NCBI GenBank assembly: GCA_030037955.1
Contig: JASHPT010000004.1
Location: 1-42,696, forward strand
Direction of reading: 5' to 3'
Length of the DNA stretch: 42,696 nucleotides
Origin: Thermoplasmata archaeon
GTDB lineage: Archaea; Thermoplasmatota; Thermoplasmata; Lutacidiplasmatales; UBA184
Part shown: positions 59 through 7,246 of the stretch, one piece after another
How the letters are laid out: every line of letters begins with the position of its first letter
Position numbering within the stretch: the first letter of the stretch is position 1
The notes under the pieces: generated by a model
What the model saw: only the letters and a program-made list of their open reading frames with translations
Databases searched by the model: none
What the model was told of the DNA's origin: nothing
Translations under genes and position numbers: made by a program

Positions 59-1213
59 ATGGCCGAGCCGGTCGCGGCCGCTGACCACCTGCATCGGCGG
101 CTGGTCGAGTTTGTGGGCTTCGTCCGCGGGCGCGGAGTACCGGTGGGCATCGGGGCGGAGGTCGACCTCGCCCGGGCCGTCGAAGTCCTCCGTCGACTCG
201 ATCGAGAGAGCCTTCGGCACGCATGTGTGACGGTCCTCGCCAAGTCCCCCGAGGAGGCGCGGAGAGTCCGTGACGCCTTCGACCTCTACTTCGTGCCCGG
301 CGTCGTTCGCCCGGAGATGCCCTCGCCGGGACATCAGTCCCGGGCCGTCTCGCCCCGGGCCCCCGCCGGGAGGGCCGGCCGACCGACCGGAAAGACGGAG
401 TCGACGGAGTCGCCGGAGTCCACCCGGATCGGAACCTATAGTCCCGAGGCGCCCGGGGCCGGGCACCCGCTGCCGGACGTGAGTCCCCGGGAGCTCCTGA
501 CCCTCCGACGCGGGGCCCGGAGGTTCCGTCGGCGGGTGGCGACGCTGCCCGGTCGCCGGCGGATCCAGTCCCGACGCGGACCGGTCGACGGACCGGCCAC
601 GGTGCGACGGGCGTTGCGCCAGGGGGGAGAATCGGTCGAGCTCGTCCGTCGTGCCGCGCGCCCGGGCCGATGCGAACTCGCGGTGTTGTGGGACGTCAGC
701 GGGTCGATGCGAGAACACGAGGGGCCGTTGTTTGCCCTGGTCTACTCGCTGGAACGGGTGTCGCGCGGGGCTCGCGTCTTTGCGTTCAGCACCCGGGTGG
801 ACGAGATCACCGACGAGATCCGCCGGCACGGGTACTCCCGGGCCCGTCGGGCGGTGGCGTCTCGCCTGGCTTCCGCCGAGGGCGGCACCCAGATCGGACC
901 CTGTCTCGAGGAGTTCTCGACCCGGTTTCCCGGCGTCGTGGGGGACCGGACCACGGTGGTTGTGGTCAGTGACGGCTGGGACCGGGCCGAGTCCGCGGCC
1001 CTGGCCGCCGAGTTCCGACGGCTCCAGCGCCGGGCGCACCGGATCGTCTGGGTGAGCCCGTACGCCCGTCACCCGGGCTTCGAGCCGAGGACGACCGGGT
1101 TGCGGACGGCGCTTCCCCTCACGGACGAGCTGCTGGGACCCGAGGACTTCCAGTCGGCCTTTCCCCGGCCCCCCCTCCAAGGGCGGTCGGCGGTCGGTCG
1201 GGTCGGCTCCTAG
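59..1213 (+). CDS. CoxE-like VWA domain protein
   Basis: This 384-residue soluble protein has a helical N-terminal region (about residues 8-80, typical of CoxE-type VWA proteins), a Pro/Arg/Ser-rich linker (about 85-150) and a C-terminal von Willebrand A domain. The metal-ion-dependent adhesion site is visible: DVSGSM at 212-217, a GGT with Thr277, and SDGWD with Asp305. In known systems such proteins pair with MoxR AAA+ ATPases to mature or load metal cofactors, as in CO dehydrogenase; that role here is inferred, because no MoxR or target enzyme is inside the window. Its TAG stop overlaps the stop of the convergent membrane-protein gene by three bases within CTAG. The family call is firm, the function is not. 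Confidence 0.85.
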   Translation: MAEPVAAADHLHRRLVEFVGFVRGRGVPVGIGAEVDLARAVEVLRRLDRESLRHACVTVLAKSPEEARRVRDAFDLYFVPGVVRPEMPSPGHQSRAVSPRAPAGRAGRPTGKTESTESPESTRIGTYSPEAPGAGHPLPDVSPRELLTLRRGARRFRRRVATLPGRRRIQSRRGPVDGPATVRRALRQGGESVELVRRAARPGRCELAVLWDVSGSMREHEGPLFALVYSLERVSRGARVFAFSTRVDEITDEIRRHGYSRARRAVASRLASAEGGTQIGPCLEEFSTRFPGVVGDRTTVVVVSDGWDRAESAALAAEFRRLQRRAHRIVWVSPYARHPGFEPRTTGLRTALPLTDELLGPEDFQSAFPRPPLQGRSAVGRVGS

Positions 1214-2166
1214 GGCGGGGAGCTGGGCGCAGCCGCCGGCGTCTCGGTGCGACCCGGAGCCGTCGTCTCCGCGGAACGCTCCGCGGGGCTACCGGCCAGG
1301 CCCCACCGGGCGAGGACGAAGACCTCGACCAGCATGGCCAGCAACGATGCCAGTCCGAACGGGAACGAGGCCCACGGCGAGCTGCCGAGCATGTAGGCGG
1401 CGGCCTCGCCGGCGACCATCGCGAGGAACCCGGCGGCAACTCCGAGGCTGGCCCACAGGAGCCTCGGCCGCGGCCGGTCCGACCGCACGAGCTCCCGGGC
1501 CAGCAGGACGAACGTCACCGTCATGACCGCGGCCATTCCGACGGCCCCGACCGTGGGGTCCGGCACGACCCAGGGGCCGACCGCACTGACCGAGGCAAAC
1601 CCGTAGAGGAGCGTCCGCTCGGGCCTCGAGAACGGAAGCCAGGTGACGAAGAAGACCATCGTCGCCAGCATGGCCCAGAAGAACCAGGCGGACGAGGCCG
1701 CGTCTCCGACGAGCGTCGCGAGACCCACGTTCCCTTCCGCTGCATAGGCGGCCGGGCCCACCTGGGCCAGGACGAAGGTGAGCCCCATGAGCAGCTCGTT
1801 GCCGACGATCAGGAGCGCGAAGCCCAGGGGCCAGAGGAGCCCCCGGGTCGGGAGGTGCTTCGTGCCGGCCCGGAAGAGGAGGCTCATCGCCCAGAGGCCG
1901 ACGACGGCCATCATGCTGTTGAGTGCGATGAAGACCGAGACCGTCGAGGCCTGGCCCGGGCTCAGCACCGCGTAGATTCCCGAGAACCAGAGCGCCATCG
2001 ACATCAGCAGGATGCCCAGGAGGAGGATCGCGGTCGCCAGCGTGGGCCGCGCCCCCCGCCGGGGGAACAGCGCCGTCAGGATGTACAGGTTCCCGCCCAC
2101 CATCAGAACGGCGAGCAACAGGAACACGAGGGTCCACGGTCCGTTCGTCGGGAGTGCGGGGATCAT
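1210..2166 (-). CDS. Polytopic membrane protein, paralogue of the N-terminus of the adjacent Fe-S protein
   Basis: A 318-residue protein with about eight hydrophobic helices and a Pro/Thr/Ala-rich cytoplasmic-looking tail (about 290-318). I do not recognise a named family. It resembles the first 180 residues of the 712-residue protein encoded just upstream: NELLMG at 123-128 followed 34 residues after the Met by WF at 161-162 matches NEFLMG at 122-127 and WF at 160-161 there. A charged Asn-Glu pair inside a hydrophobic helix suggests a conserved role in ligand, proton or quinone handling, but that is inference. The gene starts 22 nt after the upstream stop, so the two are very likely co-transcribed and may form one complex. 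Confidence 0.8.
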   Translation of the reverse strand: MIPALPTNGPWTLVFLLLAVLMVGGNLYILTALFPRRGARPTLATAILLLGILLMSMALWFSGIYAVLSPGQASTVSVFIALNSMMAVVGLWAMSLLFRAGTKHLPTRGLLWPLGFALLIVGNELLMGLTFVLAQVGPAAYAAEGNVGLATLVGDAASSAWFFWAMLATMVFFVTWLPFSRPERTLLYGFASVSAVGPWVVPDPTVGAVGMAAVMTVTFVLLARELVRSDRPRPRLLWASLGVAAGFLAMVAGEAAAYMLGSSPWASFPFGLASLLAMLVEVFVLARWGLAGSPAERSAETTAPGRTETPAAAPSSPP

Positions 2167-2188
2167 GACCGGCCCCCGCGGGAGACCC

Positions 2189-4327
2189 TCATGGAGATCC
2201 CGTGGGCGAGGTGGCGGTCCGCGTCGTCACGCCGGCGGGGACGGCCGGGCTCGCTCCGACCCGCGGGCTCGGGTTCCGGAGCACCGGCAGCGAGACCTCG
2301 GACGCCGGAGGGATCGGAAGACCGAGGCGGTTGCGGAACCAGTGGCGTACATCGTAGATGTAGAGATTGCCGTACGGACAGGCACCGACGCAGTTGCCCA
2401 CGCCACAGCACTTCGTGCTCCGGAACTCGCCCTTCTGGCGGAAGTGGCCCGGCATGTCCACGAGCCCCACCGGGCAGCTCTTCGCGCAATCGAGCGTCGT
2501 GCAGTCGCGGCAGACCTGCTTGTCCCGGACCTTGAGCTTGAAGAATCCGATCTTCTGGAACGCCTGCGCGATGGTCCCCGTGTAGCACCAGCCCATCGTG
2601 ACGCAGTTGTAATTCCCCGTGTAGGGGATGGTGACGAACATCACGTACCAGAGCACGCTGAAGGAGAGCACGAACAGGAAGACGCTCGGGTCCGTGCCGC
2701 CGACGGTGATGTTCAGCCGGCCGGTCTGGTCGAAGTAGGAGAGGAAGGAGGTGCCGACCAGCGCGACCAGGACGACCGCCGTGGTGGTGGAGTAGAGAGC
2801 GGAGAACCGGCTGCTGAGGTACTTCCGGGCGAACGGCGAGCTGCGATTGAACGACTTCATGGCATCGATCGCCGTTCCCTGGTACATCAGCGGCGCTGTG
2901 CAGAACACCGAGCAGATCACGCGGCGACCGAAGAGCGCGGTGAGCGCCCCGGTCGCGACATACGTCACGAGCAGCACGACGAACACCGAGGGCACGAGCG
3001 GAGCCGACCCGATGCCCATCGACCAGCCCAGGATCGGTACCTGGGTTCCGGAGGCCCAGGTCGGGAAGACCGCCGAGTAGTAGACGCTCGGGAAGAACAC
3101 GGCGAAGAGCCCGTAGCAGGCCATCATGAGCGCCAGCCGGATCTTGGTCTCGAGATGCCGGGTCTCCCGGAACTTGAAGACGACCAAGGCGCCCATCTCG
3201 ATGCCCATCATCGCGAGGAACCAGGTCGACCCCGCGACGAGCGCGAAGAACCAGAAGCCGTTCGAGGCGGCGTTCTCGAGTACGATGAATGTCGACCCGC
3301 TCAGGGGCAAGGACGGGAAGGCGCCGGCGTAGACGCCCGGTTGGATCTGCAGGTCGAGGAGCGCGCCCATGAACAGCTCGGCGACGAAGATGAATGCCAG
3401 CAGCTGGAACGCCCAGTTCGCATTCAGCTGCCAGACCATCCGCTCAGGGGCGGAGAATCTCTCGGGCCGCACGACCGCGTCGAGATAGACGAGCATCTCG
3501 AGCACGATGGACGCCGCGAAGAGCAGCGGCTGGCCGTAGGCGGCCCAGAGGAACAGGCCCGCCATCATGAGGCCATAGACCCCGAGCAACCGGGTCAGGT
3601 ACCGGGAGAAGGCGACGTTGAGCTCCTTCTCCCGGTAGATGTGTTCCATGAGATAGACGAAGAGCGCGATCATCACCGCGCTGCCGCCGACCACGCTGAT
3701 CTCTCGCCAGCCGCTCAGGCCGAGCGCCGGTGGCGACAGGAGCATCAGCACCGCCTGGAAGCTCACGACGATCACGAACGGTCGGTCGAATCGCGAACGG
3801 AGCAGGTAGGCCGTGAGCGCCATCTCCCCGGCCATGGTGAACAGGAACCACGGCGAATCGATGACCGCCGTCACGCTCGTTGCCAGCGGTCCGAGCCCGG
3901 TAGCGAGCGGTGCGAACCGTAGCCCGGACACCAGGTCGAAGGCCCAGCCCATCAGGAACTCGTTGGCGAGGACGAGCGCGGCGATGAGGGCGCCGAAGGC
4001 CACGCCCTTGCGGAGCGGTGCCGTGGGGAGACTCTCGTTCGCGGTGAGCTGAACCTGGGCCACCCGAAGGAAGGCGAGGAACGGAACCAGAGCGCCCGCC
4101 GACATGACGCCGGCGGCCAGCCAGAGACCTTCGACGAGACCCGTGGTCCCCGGATGGAAAAAGTAGACCACGATGCCGCCGAACATCGCGGCCATCATCA
4201 GCAGCAGGAACACGATGGCGGCGGCCTGGAGGGGCATCCGAGCCTCGACCGCCCAACGGATCACGAGAGCGGTGAACACCGCCATCAAAGCGGCTAGGAT
4301 CCCCAGTACCAGGTCGACGCCGAGCAT
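2189..4327 (-). CDS. Multi-spanning membrane protein with C-terminal iron-sulfur clusters
   Basis: A 712-residue protein with many transmembrane helices over roughly residues 1-570 and a cytoplasmic-type C-terminus holding two four-cysteine sets: Cys606, 609, 614, 618 (C-x2-C-x4-C-x3-CP) and Cys640, 641, 646, 650 (CC-x4-C-x3-CP). The overall plan recalls NapH/NosR-type membrane polyferredoxins that pass electrons between the quinone pool and soluble or membrane partners, but the spacing is not the usual CxxCxxCxxxCP. The membrane part contains two copies of a module, NEFLMG (122-127) with WF (160-161) and AELFMG (316-321) with WF (359-360), also present in the next gene. The start is 37 nt after the stop of the upstream gene, preceded by a GGAGGG. 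The electron-transfer role is inferred; the substrate is unknown. Confidence 0.8.
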   Translation of the reverse strand: MLGVDLVLGILAALMAVFTALVIRWAVEARMPLQAAAIVFLLLMMAAMFGGIVVYFFHPGTTGLVEGLWLAAGVMSAGALVPFLAFLRVAQVQLTANESLPTAPLRKGVAFGALIAALVLANEFLMGWAFDLVSGLRFAPLATGLGPLATSVTAVIDSPWFLFTMAGEMALTAYLLRSRFDRPFVIVVSFQAVLMLLSPPALGLSGWREISVVGGSAVMIALFVYLMEHIYREKELNVAFSRYLTRLLGVYGLMMAGLFLWAAYGQPLLFAASIVLEMLVYLDAVVRPERFSAPERMVWQLNANWAFQLLAFIFVAELFMGALLDLQIQPGVYAGAFPSLPLSGSTFIVLENAASNGFWFFALVAGSTWFLAMMGIEMGALVVFKFRETRHLETKIRLALMMACYGLFAVFFPSVYYSAVFPTWASGTQVPILGWSMGIGSAPLVPSVFVVLLVTYVATGALTALFGRRVICSVFCTAPLMYQGTAIDAMKSFNRSSPFARKYLSSRFSALYSTTTAVVLVALVGTSFLSYFDQTGRLNITVGGTDPSVFLFVLSFSVLWYVMFVTIPYTGNYNCVTMGWCYTGTIAQAFQKIGFFKLKVRDKQVCRDCTTLDCAKSCPVGLVDMPGHFRQKGEFRSTKCCGVGNCVGACPYGNLYIYDVRHWFRNRLGLPIPPASEVSLPVLRNPSPRVGASPAVPAGVTTRTATSPTGSP

Positions 4328-4363
4328 GCTCCCGTTTACCCTCCGCCGCTCGGGGCGCCCCCT

Positions 4364-5653
4364 CTACCTCTGAGTACCCGGGCTGAGGCCCAGGGGGCTC
4401 TCGGGCACCCCTCGTACGCCGGTCGGGGACTGAGCGGAACCCGAAAGGGATGCGACAGCGTCCGCGGCGCCAACGACCGTCCAGAGAATCGGTCGAAGCG
4501 CCAGCCGGGGCCGAAGGCCCAGGACGATAGCAAAGGTTCCGAGGAGAACGTACTGGAAGCCCCAGCGTAGTACGAGCGCCGTGCCGAGCGGCAGGCTCGG
4601 CGCCACGGCGCCCCAGGCCGCCGGGGCGCCCGCCAGCCCCAGAAGCTCGTTGACCAGTCCATGCCAGCCGGACAAGGCTAACGGCGGCGGCATGCCGATT
4701 GCAAGGGATGCTCCGGCCAGGACGAGCAGGGCCCGAAACACCAGTCCGGGAGCCTCGCTGAGTCCGCGGGCGAGGGCCCGGTAGGTCGGCAGCGGTACCA
4801 GGGCCGCCACAACCGCCACCCACCCGACCAGCTGATACTGAAGGAGCCACGCCGCCCAGGTCCCAGCGGACGCCGTCGTGGGACTCACGGTGAGCCAGTC
4901 TGCGACCATGGCGAGACACCAGGTCACGCCCGCGGCGAGCAACGCGACTCGGAGAGCGGCTCCCGCGATAAACCGTCGGGTGACTGCGGGAGCTTGGATC
5001 GACACGGCGGACGAGCCGCTGCGGTCGCTCACGAGCGCCCCATAGACGGTGAGCAGCTGTTCCTGGGCGAGCAGGGCGACGTAGAGGATCACGAGCTGGA
5101 ACAGGCCCAGGTACCAGTTGTTCGCGAGGAGGGCCCCGGTGCTCGTTCCGGTCGCTTGGGCGGTGATCCCGATGCCCGCCACGGAGGCGGCGGTCGTGGA
5201 GCAGCAGGCTCCGAGGGTGACCAGCGCGATCATCGCGGGGGTGAGCCCTGCGGCCGTCCCCACGGCCGCCGCCCGACCCGCCGCGCGCCGACGACGAACG
5301 AAGGTGGCTCCGAGCACGACCGCGACGGACATGCCCAGCCCGACGCCGGCGGAGGTCAGGATCATGAACACCGTTGGAAGGAACGGGAGCTCGACAGCGA
5401 AGTACGGCGTCGCCGCGAGCAACCCCGGGTAGTCCCAGCTCGGAGTCCCGGCGAGCAGGATGACCCAGAACGACGAGAGATGCGCCGGAGGATAGAAGAT
5501 CGACAACATTCCGCCGACCAGCATGGCGATGCCGGCGTAGACTACCGCGATGAGCACCGCGAGGGCGGCGATCCGGCGGGGGCGCAACAGGGAACGGGAG
5601 TGAGCGAGCGTGAGCAGCGACCAGGATCCGGGACCCGGCCGGCGCTCGACCAT
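4364..5653 (-). CDS. Polytopic membrane protein with a vicinal Cys-Cys pair
   Basis: A 429-residue membrane protein with around ten hydrophobic segments, family not recognised. The ATG at 5653 is chosen because it gives a short N-terminus before the first helix and lies about 32 nt from a TATA-like element at 5681-5690; an in-frame extension to 5749 would run into the neighbouring IS end. A striking LGACCSTTAAS motif places two adjacent cysteines (about 150-151) within or at the edge of a helix, which could bind a metal or haem or form a redox disulfide. It is first in an apparent operon with the Fe-S membrane protein and its paralogue, so it may be part of the same complex. Function unknown. 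Confidence 0.7.
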   Translation of the reverse strand: MVERRPGPGSWSLLTLAHSRSLLRPRRIAALAVLIAVVYAGIAMLVGGMLSIFYPPAHLSSFWVILLAGTPSWDYPGLLAATPYFAVELPFLPTVFMILTSAGVGLGMSVAVVLGATFVRRRRAAGRAAAVGTAAGLTPAMIALVTLGACCSTTAASVAGIGITAQATGTSTGALLANNWYLGLFQLVILYVALLAQEQLLTVYGALVSDRSGSSAVSIQAPAVTRRFIAGAALRVALLAAGVTWCLAMVADWLTVSPTTASAGTWAAWLLQYQLVGWVAVVAALVPLPTYRALARGLSEAPGLVFRALLVLAGASLAIGMPPPLALSGWHGLVNELLGLAGAPAAWGAVAPSLPLGTALVLRWGFQYVLLGTFAIVLGLRPRLALRPILWTVVGAADAVASLSGSAQSPTGVRGVPESPLGLSPGTQR

Positions 5654-5690: not shown

Positions 5691-5750
5691 CTACGTACAC
5701 ACTTGCTTTGGGATTTCATTCGAGTTCGTCGAGGAGACCCGGTTGTCACC

Positions 5751-5806: not shown

Positions 5807-7246
5807 ATGCATGTCCTCCGGGGCCTCCTTCTTCCTCTCGCCTCCCCGCTACCTCCGTCCCTCCTTGGCCTCATGGCCGACTATCGACTCCTGACCAACG
5901 CCACCCTCCGACATCTCCTCGACACCGGCCAGACCTCCCGAGGTTCTGGCTCCAGGTTCGCCCGCAACTGGGCACTCGTCAACCGCATGACCGGCCAGCA
6001 TGCGGTCGTGGCGGCGGAGATCGCCGTTTCACTCGCTCGCGCCCATCGAACCCGGCTTCGGAAGGGGATCCCTTCCGAGACCCCCTATATCCGGAAGCGA
6101 TTCCTTCGGACCGGTCCGACGACCTTTCACTTCGACCTCGACACCGGCAAGGTCCGTGTATCCCTCAGAAGCGGAGAGTGGTGTTCCTTCCTCGTTCACG
6201 TCGCCCCCTACCATCGGGAACGACTCCAGGACCCCGATCTTCGCATCAAGCAGCTCCAGGTGTCCGAGGACCGGGTGGCGTTGTTCCTTGAACGAGAGGT
6301 TCCAGAACCCTACCATCCCTCATCCCTGGTCGCTCTCGACACCAACGAACGGTCCATGGACGGAGTCGTTGTCACCGCCTCGGGTACCCAGACCACCCGA
6401 GTCGAGTATCCGGAGATCCCTCGGATCCAGGCCGTTCATTTCCAACGGCGGCGACGGCTGGCCCGAAAGAAAGCCCATGACCGACGGGTGGGTCGGAGAC
6501 TGCTCTCCCAGGAAGGTCGTCGGGAACGACACCGGGTCCGGTCTCGGCTGCACGTCCTGAGCCGACGGTTCATCGAGATCCTGGAACGACACCATGCCGC
6601 CCTCGCCCTCGAGGACCTGTCTCGAGTATCCCAACCCCGACGAAAGGGTCTCGGTTCTCGAGGCCGGTGGATGAGTCCCCAGCTCCGTCGTCGACTTTCC
6701 AGCTGGCCCCGTCGGGAGTTGCATCGCCAGCTGGAATACAAGGCCCAGGACCACGGTGTTCCGATCTACTGGGTCAACCCGTATCGTACCAGTGTGACCT
6801 GCCCGAGATGTGGGGATGTTCACCGACCCCGAAGCAGGGTAGGACCGATGTTCACGTGCACTGCGTGTGGCTGGACGATGGACCGGCAGCTCAACGCCGG
6901 AGTGAATGTCGGACGAACCGCTCTGCGAGACATCGCAGAGCTCGAAGGTCTTCGACTGGACCTTGACGGCCTTTCCGAGGATGCGAGGAGGCCCCGCTAC
7001 CCCTTCGAAGCGTCGAGGGGGCACGGGCGGAGCGGAGGGAAAGGAAGGGAGAGAAAGCAGCGGGCATCGGAAGGTGAACCCTGTGAACAGAGTCCCAAAG
7101 CCGCAACGACCGTCGGCCGCTGCGCACAGTTGCCCCCCGGGAGCGAGCGGACACCGCCTCTCAGATCAGGTGGAGCTCTCGTCCGGCCTTCTCGAAAGCG
7201 GAGATCGCGACGTCCACGTCTTCGGGAGAGAGGGCCGCATTCATGA
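5807..7246 (+). CDS. tnpB: TnpB RNA-guided nuclease / OrfB transposase-like protein
   Basis: A 479-residue protein of the IS605 OrfB (TnpB) family, ancestors of Cas12. The RuvC-like catalytic residues appear intact: Asp178 in LDTNE, Glu269 in LED, and Asp359 in DRQLNAGVN. A zinc ribbon Cys332, Cys335, Cys351, Cys354 lies between the second and third. I take the start at 5807 because residues 3-30 resemble the N-terminal strand of the family; ATG 5873 is an alternative. The RuvC fold should end near residue 375, yet the frame stays open for about another 105 Arg/Gly/Ser-rich residues and stops 86 nt inside the antisense kbl gene. That tail is probably IS right-end and host sequence read as protein. 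No tnpA partner is present. Characterised TnpB proteins use an RNA from the element's 3' end to cut DNA and maintain the element. Confidence 0.88.
   Translation: MHVLRGLLLPLASPLPPSLLGLMADYRLLTNATLRHLLDTGQTSRGSGSRFARNWALVNRMTGQHAVVAAEIAVSLARAHRTRLRKGIPSETPYIRKRFLRTGPTTFHFDLDTGKVRVSLRSGEWCSFLVHVAPYHRERLQDPDLRIKQLQVSEDRVALFLEREVPEPYHPSSLVALDTNERSMDGVVVTASGTQTTRVEYPEIPRIQAVHFQRRRRLARKKAHDRRVGRRLLSQEGRRERHRVRSRLHVLSRRFIEILERHHAALALEDLSRVSQPRRKGLGSRGRWMSPQLRRRLSSWPRRELHRQLEYKAQDHGVPIYWVNPYRTSVTCPRCGDVHRPRSRVGPMFTCTACGWTMDRQLNAGVNVGRTALRDIAELEGLRLDLDGLSEDARRPRYPFEASRGHGRSGGKGRERKQRASEGEPCEQSPKAATTVGRCAQLPPGSERTPPLRSGGALVRPSRKRRSRRPRLRERGPHS
7069..7079 (-). repeat. Right copy of 11-bp inverted repeat flanking tnpB
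   Basis: GGAAGGTGAAC is the exact reverse complement of 5751-5761. It lies inside the 3' part of the extended tnpB frame and 82 nt before the kbl stop codon, in the zone where TnpB guide RNAs normally originate. Confidence 0.5.

Follow-up and report, generated by a model that had tools for sequence, protein, structure and literature searches.

A duplicated methionine/glutamate membrane module joined to a NapH-like ferredoxin domain in archaea, a candidate system for copper reduction and transfer

Membrane proteins with a methionine relay of the CusA type move Cu(I) or Ag(I). In Ctr1, an M-x3-M motif forms the Cu+ selectivity filter (PMC6437178), and in a Ctr1 peptide Cu(I) is held at pH 3.5 by the methionine sites alone (PMC9117721). 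CcoG is a cupric reductase that acts in the assembly of bacterial cbb3 oxidase, is encoded beside that oxidase and is reported to hold two tetranuclear clusters and two copper sites; for archaea, the same 2020 review names a single cupric reductase, a CopZ of Archaeoglobus (PMC7558416). The route by which copper reaches the terminal oxidases of archaea that have no detectable SCO chaperone appears open. Here we describe a protein, B, encoded with two further membrane proteins, A and C, on a stretch of 42,696 nucleotides (contig JASHPT010000004.1 of assembly GCA_030037955.1; hereafter the window) from a Thermoplasmata archaeon whose genome measures 1.88 Mb and is 90% complete. B combines a duplicated membrane module with a C-terminal domain resembling NapH and CcoG, and its family is linked to haem-copper oxidase genes. 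We tentatively favor a reading in which B acts in the membrane as a metalloreductase and handles Cu(I) for the maturation of haem-copper oxidases and cupredoxins in acidophilic archaea.

A repeated module with a methionine/glutamate belt

The open reading frames place genes C, B and A next to one another on the minus strand, with gaps of 36 bp (C–B) and 22 bp (B–A). The original prediction, made from the sequence of the window, had described these genes in the same arrangement and had proposed that A and B share a repeated module. Recomputed, the motifs on which it relied lie at NELLMG 123 and WF 161 in A and at NEFLMG 122, WF 160, AELFMG 316, WF 359 and WF 369 in B. In single comparisons, as distinct from database searches, a profile built from stand-alone A genes matches B residues 4-286 (E 1.6e-46), and hhalign pairs A with the first copy in B (B1; E 1.6e-35, with homology spanning B residues 1-292), A with the second copy (B2; E 1.7e-9) and B1 with the non-overlapping B2 (94%, E 2e-7). 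Judged from these alignments, the repeat across A, B1 and B2 is far beyond chance, with B2 the diverged copy in B. The repeated unit covers about 290 residues instead of the 180 first claimed, and the third motif copy, AELFMG 316, is correctly placed but pairs with the homologous WF at 369-370 (WFLAMMGIEMG), not with the WF at 359-360.

The AlphaFold model of B, based on a 75-sequence alignment, has a mean predicted local distance difference test score (pLDDT) of 91.7 and a predicted template modeling score of 0.90. It contains seven helices in the same order in B1 and B2, with conserved residues at matching mid-helix places, and the two copies probably share a common fold. Neither Pfam nor NCBIfam has a family that covers A or C, and the same is true of the membrane portion of B. 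A PDB fold search with the B model returned no match at E <= 0.001, and PDB sequence and fold searches found no match to a copper transporter. Lacking a Pfam family and having a confident model without a solved-structure match, the module would represent a new membrane fold. The earlier reading is supported in that B is an undescribed redox protein of the membrane in which a module is duplicated.

Methionine dominates the conserved residues of this module. Among the 75 aligned B proteins, whose identity to the window protein reaches down to 23%, 36 columns within residues 1-460 are conserved at a level of at least 90%; these comprise 15 methionines (about 2 expected, p ~1e-10), five glutamates and no histidine. 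Elsewhere, methionine accounts for 1 of 43 conserved columns in the NapH-like C-terminal part of B, 2 of 46 in C and, in a set of 12 sequences only, 0 of 28 in the neighboring COX1. Across 15 A proteins, six columns are invariant, namely M22, M86, E124, M127, M166 and M170. An M-x3-M motif is present in each copy of the module (M165/M169 and M374/M378 in B, M166/M170 in A). The buried Asn-Glu-Met patch of the original prediction is a conserved site but, as the alignments indicate, is one element of a wider belt of methionine and glutamate whose methionine dominance had been missed. The haem site also proposed there is rejected, as no membrane histidine is conserved in the 75 B and 15 A sequences, which argues against haem.

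Short B paralogues of about 460-490 aa, from genomes that we provisionally label Sulfolobales-like, keep all of the iron-sulfur and membrane-edge cysteines checked and have lost nearly all of the module methionines and glutamates. This natural dissociation supports a probable separate role for the module. The paralogues (L232, L235, L238, L240, L243) adjoin a conserved secreted protein of unassigned family, a thioredoxin-like DUF929 protein and, in some cases, VKOR, and a thiol-related role is suggested for them.

The C-terminal domain of B

The electron-transfer domain that had been read at the C-terminus of B is present, and its NapH-like nature had gone unnoticed. B residues ~440-670 align by hhalign with E. 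coli NapH (96.5%, 175 columns) and with YccM (95%), and Fer4_5 matches 6 of 22 B orthologues. The NapH/MauN model TIGR02163 matches a Sulfolobales-like paralogue (E 4e-10; 39.6 bits, below the curated cut-off of 213), and the NapH model of NCBIfam matches a full-length Sulfolobales-like B at E 1e-5, again below its curated cut-off. Of the two iron-sulfur cysteine sets originally proposed, both exist, but the second has only three conserved cysteines (Table 1): position 643 is valine or isoleucine in 65 of 75 proteins and cysteine in only 2, leaving B with a single complete four-cysteine ferredoxin motif. The paired C-x3-C-P motifs of NapH are likewise absent, with proline following the first C-x3-C pair in only 8 of 75 proteins and the second pair being C-x5-C in the window protein. 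By its sequence, the C-terminus of B appears to be a diverged membrane ferredoxin of the NapH/YccM/CcoG type, in which cluster II may be a [3Fe-4S] or open-site cluster.

Table 1. Features of the three-gene locus. Positions are those of the window; for helices, B residues of the model are given (B1/B2)
Feature	Position	Strand	Description
Gene A	1210..2166	-	318 aa; the methionine/glutamate membrane module as a separate protein
Gene B	2189..4327	-	712 aa; two membrane modules and a NapH-like membrane ferredoxin domain
Gene C	4364..5653	-	~429 aa from ATG; membrane protein without assigned family
B1, module copy 1	3632..4240	-	B residues 30-232; M45/M48, M75, E123-M126, M165-E168-M169, M219
B2, module copy 2	2930..3616	-	B residues 238-466; M254/M255, M278, E317-M320, M374-E377-M378
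First membrane-edge Cys pair	2900..2914	-	C472-x3-C476, GRRxxCSxxC, NapH/CcoG-like position; 75/75
Second membrane-edge Cys pair	2585..2605	-	C575-x5-C581; 75/75
Cluster I	2474..2512	-	B 606-618, C-x2-C-x4-C-x3-C; 75/75; Fer4_7 E 6.6e-6
Cluster II	2378..2410	-	B 640-650, C-x5-C-x3-C-P; three conserved Cys, 75/75
Vicinal Cys pair of C	5201..5206	-	GACCS; predicted membrane helix; invariant in 26 homologues
Paired helices in model	32-57/238-264, 61-95/268-286, 109-133/303-328, 145-156/346-365		
Paired helices, continued	159-175/368-388, 182-196/392-411, 205-232/446-466		

Distribution, oxidase linkage and neighbors

B is encoded in 116 of 300 Thermoplasmata genomes and in 24 of 398 genomes of Thermoproteota, the phylum holding the Marsarchaeota locus. 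Its range takes in Thermoplasmata, Thaumarchaeota/Nitrososphaerales, Marsarchaeota and Sulfolobales-like genomes, with named matches that include Marsarchaeota G2 and Nitrososphaerales, and several complete genomes hold two or three copies. Plasmid records gave no match to B, and no description of the family was found in the literature on FoxG, OdsN and DUF1404.

B co-occurs with haem-copper oxidase subunit I (COX1) and is often encoded next to it, a link that the original reading as a redox cassette had missed. COX1 is present in 107 of 115 B-bearing Thermoplasmata genomes, the window's own genome excluded (Fisher p ~5e-46), and in 23 of 24 B-bearing Thermoproteota genomes, neither figure being corrected for phylogeny. 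Among 35 same-contig pairs of B and COX1, 33 lie 0.2-9.5 kb apart, three of these at ~200 bp, and two lie 25 kb apart. In one locus (L244), COX1, Rieske, cytochrome b and B are consecutive touching genes. Other neighbors of B include DUF1404 proteins (one of which weakly matches Caa3_CtaG), a sulfocyanin-type cupredoxin, Rieske and, by sequence inspection, a CtaB-like gene (L190, L191). A CtaA reading of a 261-aa neighbor (L042, L048) was dropped, as neither Pfam nor NCBIfam supports it. In the genomes sampled, strong SCO1 matches are confined to those that lack B, among them six of the eight sampled Thermoproteota genomes with COX1 and without B. Two Thermoplasmata families (f25 and f26) contain about 23 genomes with COX1 and without B, mostly without strong SCO1 in the sample.

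The unit of this distribution is B, with A and C as optional partners. Across 38 loci of the window's archaeal family, some on contigs that end early, 25 have C immediately upstream of B, 18 have a linked A, which may face either way, and 10 have all three genes linked; no C was found in loci where A immediately precedes B. A also adjoins B in six Thermoplasmatales, two Nitrososphaeria and one Sulfolobales-like loci, and B is commonly found with neither A nor C. The neighborhood survey thus confines the three-gene cassette of the original prediction to the window's family; a universal cassette is rejected because C is limited to that family, A is linked in some lineages only and B often stands alone.

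The window's own genome encodes a shorter paralogue of B on contig C85 (L039 5299-7083); after it comes a subunit of an oxoacid:ferredoxin oxidoreductase, with a dicluster ferredoxin. In three related genomes the paralogue is retained, as is a PBP-type gene upstream of it, but not the oxidoreductase gene, which was rejected as a functional clue for want of this conservation. In a complete 1.56 Mb genome (G082, L053 7662-9583), one of five in its genus with B and without COX1, B is split into two overlapping open reading frames.

Gene C may alternatively start at an upstream GTG at 5749, giving 461 aa. The window protein has no Pfam match, its 26 homologues yielded no recurrent family, and a PDB fold search with its AlphaFold model (pLDDT 79.5) gave no match at E <= 0.001. 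A role for C can be proposed from its invariant Cys-Cys pair and its position. In five loci (L049, L182, L189, L196, L198), B is followed by a membrane protein of 262-293 aa with the motif G(G/A)(A/S)CC(I/L)S(L/I)P, and in some of them DUF1404 comes next. By hhalign, C has no detectable homology to the CxC and CC membrane proteins beside B (SCQCE in L042, L043 and L048; GASCC in L049, L182 and L189), and the cysteine motif and position that they have in common are no more than suggestive.

Close named relatives of the host are metagenome-assembled genomes labeled 'Thermoplasmata archaeon', including AcS/SubAcS genomes from acid soil; their naming and habitat fit the Lutacidiplasmatales (PMC9287336). 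On the plus strand at the contig end, a CoxE-like VWA protein (59-1213; E 1e-41) is convergent with gene A and overlaps its stop by a few bases. On the other side, a 479-aa TnpB-like protein (5807-7246, plus strand; Cas12f1-like TNB domain, E 7e-18) has its start 58 bp away from the alternative GTG of gene C and ~150 bp away from the ATG of that gene.

Copper reduction and transfer weighed against other roles

A methionine-lined module fused to a reductase of the CcoG superfamily, beside oxidase genes in lineages that are often acidophilic, is most readily explained if B reduces Cu(II) and passes the resulting Cu(I) on to the oxidase or to cupredoxins. A reduced cytoplasmic carrier would feed electrons into the C-terminal ferredoxin domain, and, by analogy with CcoG, the iron-sulfur clusters together with the two cysteine pairs at the membrane edge would reduce Cu(II) to Cu(I). 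The duplicated module would then bind Cu(I) and move it through the membrane along a thioether-lined path of mid-helix methionines and glutamates. The residues are observed in the alignments, and we infer from them that the path binds Cu(I), still doing so at acid pH, which methionine thioethers would suit by analogy with the Ctr1 peptide. A would add one more copy of this module, and C, with Cys-Cys in a membrane helix, may associate with A and B in the window's family to receive or donate the metal. A more specific proposal, which we regard as possible but hold more loosely, is that B works as an archaeal machine made of one chain, which joins iron-sulfur-based Cu(II) reduction to Cu(I) conduction by a methionine-lined module of new fold and so provides acid-proof copper loading of haem-copper oxidases and cupredoxins.

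Several observations weigh against a copper role. The window's own genome has COX1 on another contig (C45), and five genomes of one genus (g38) have B without COX1, three of them with a weak cupredoxin match. Many COX1-bearing archaea, among them ammonia oxidizers and families f25 and f26, do without B, which is therefore not a general requirement of the oxidase. The SCO1 pattern is not universal, and since f25 lacks both B and SCO1, B is not simply an SCO substitute; replacement of SCO by B was rejected on the grounds that strong SCO1 is missing from some genomes without B as well as from the sampled genomes with it. CopD occurs in several B genomes and its distribution shows no pattern. Cluster II and the second cysteine pair deviate from CcoG and NapH, and copper is linked to B indirectly.

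The main rival casts B as a respiratory oxidoreductase that stands in, among acidophiles, for the arm of complex I through which electrons enter. Electrons would pass between reduced ferredoxin (or quinol) and the quinone pool by way of the NapH-like iron-sulfur domain, and buried module glutamates would carry protons. NapH-type proteins are quinol dehydrogenases, and the operon with Rieske and cytochrome b fits this role. So does cluster II, as C-x5-C-x3-CP, missing one cysteine, resembles the [3Fe-4S] site near quinone in succinate dehydrogenase. The module has five conserved glutamates, but A keeps a single invariant one, and the most conserved membrane residues are methionines, not the His, Arg or Tyr usual at quinone sites. 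The oxoacid:ferredoxin oxidoreductase subunit beside the own-genome paralogue would also suit a ferredoxin-linked role, but it is the PBP-type gene that the three related genomes conserve. Purified SoxM/SoxABCD complexes are not known to contain B as a subunit. We consider this role unlikely, though it is the alternative to be taken most seriously.

Two further explanations keep the oxidase or the metal and change the chemistry. B might be an oxidase assembly factor that does not transport copper and whose iron-sulfur domain serves haem a/o maturation or reduction of copper-site cysteines, as the CtaB-like gene and the DUF929 and VKOR genes beside the short paralogues could indicate. The module has no conserved histidine, however, the CtaA-like neighbor found no family support, and the thiol-linked paralogues are the very ones that lost the methionine/glutamate set; we judge this explanation quite improbable. 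Least probable in our view is that the module handles another soft metal, in silver or mercury defense or with iron, and that common regulation in metal-rich acid habitats accounts for the oxidase link. Methionine thioethers also bind Ag(I) (PMC9117721). The Cys-Cys membrane motif of C recalls mercury-transfer proteins. Against this stand the tight adjacency and operon structure with oxidase subunits in several lineages and the presence of B in soil as well as mine-drainage lineages. The B family is conserved, oxidase-linked and unannotated and probably occurs in cultivable model organisms, which makes the question of copper loading directly testable.

Among described systems, CusA, like B, combines methionines with buried carboxylates; B differs in fold and size, and no relation was detected. 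With Ctr1, B and A have in common M-x3-M in the middle of a membrane helix, whereas no sequence relation (no Pfam match) or fold match to a copper transporter was found, and the ~17 predicted helices of B, with added glutamates and an iron-sulfur reductase on the same chain, contrast with a trimer of three-helix subunits. NapH/MauN and YccM resemble B in the succession of a membrane helix, the GRxxC-x3-C edge motif, further helices, a second cysteine pair followed by glycine and two iron-sulfur motifs; B differs from NapH/MauN in its second pair (C-x5-C instead of C-x3-CP), in the scarcity of proline after the first, in its three-cysteine cluster II and in ~440 extra N-terminal residues with the duplicated module. 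CcoG is, like B in many lineages (though not on the window contig), a membrane iron-sulfur protein encoded beside a haem-copper oxidase. The Ig-like C-terminal domain of CcoG is absent from B, in whose model the ferredoxin domain is followed by a tail of low confidence that closes the chain, and also from YccM-type members. B further departs from CcoG in its cluster motif and second cysteine pair, and it carries a candidate metal-binding module of its own.

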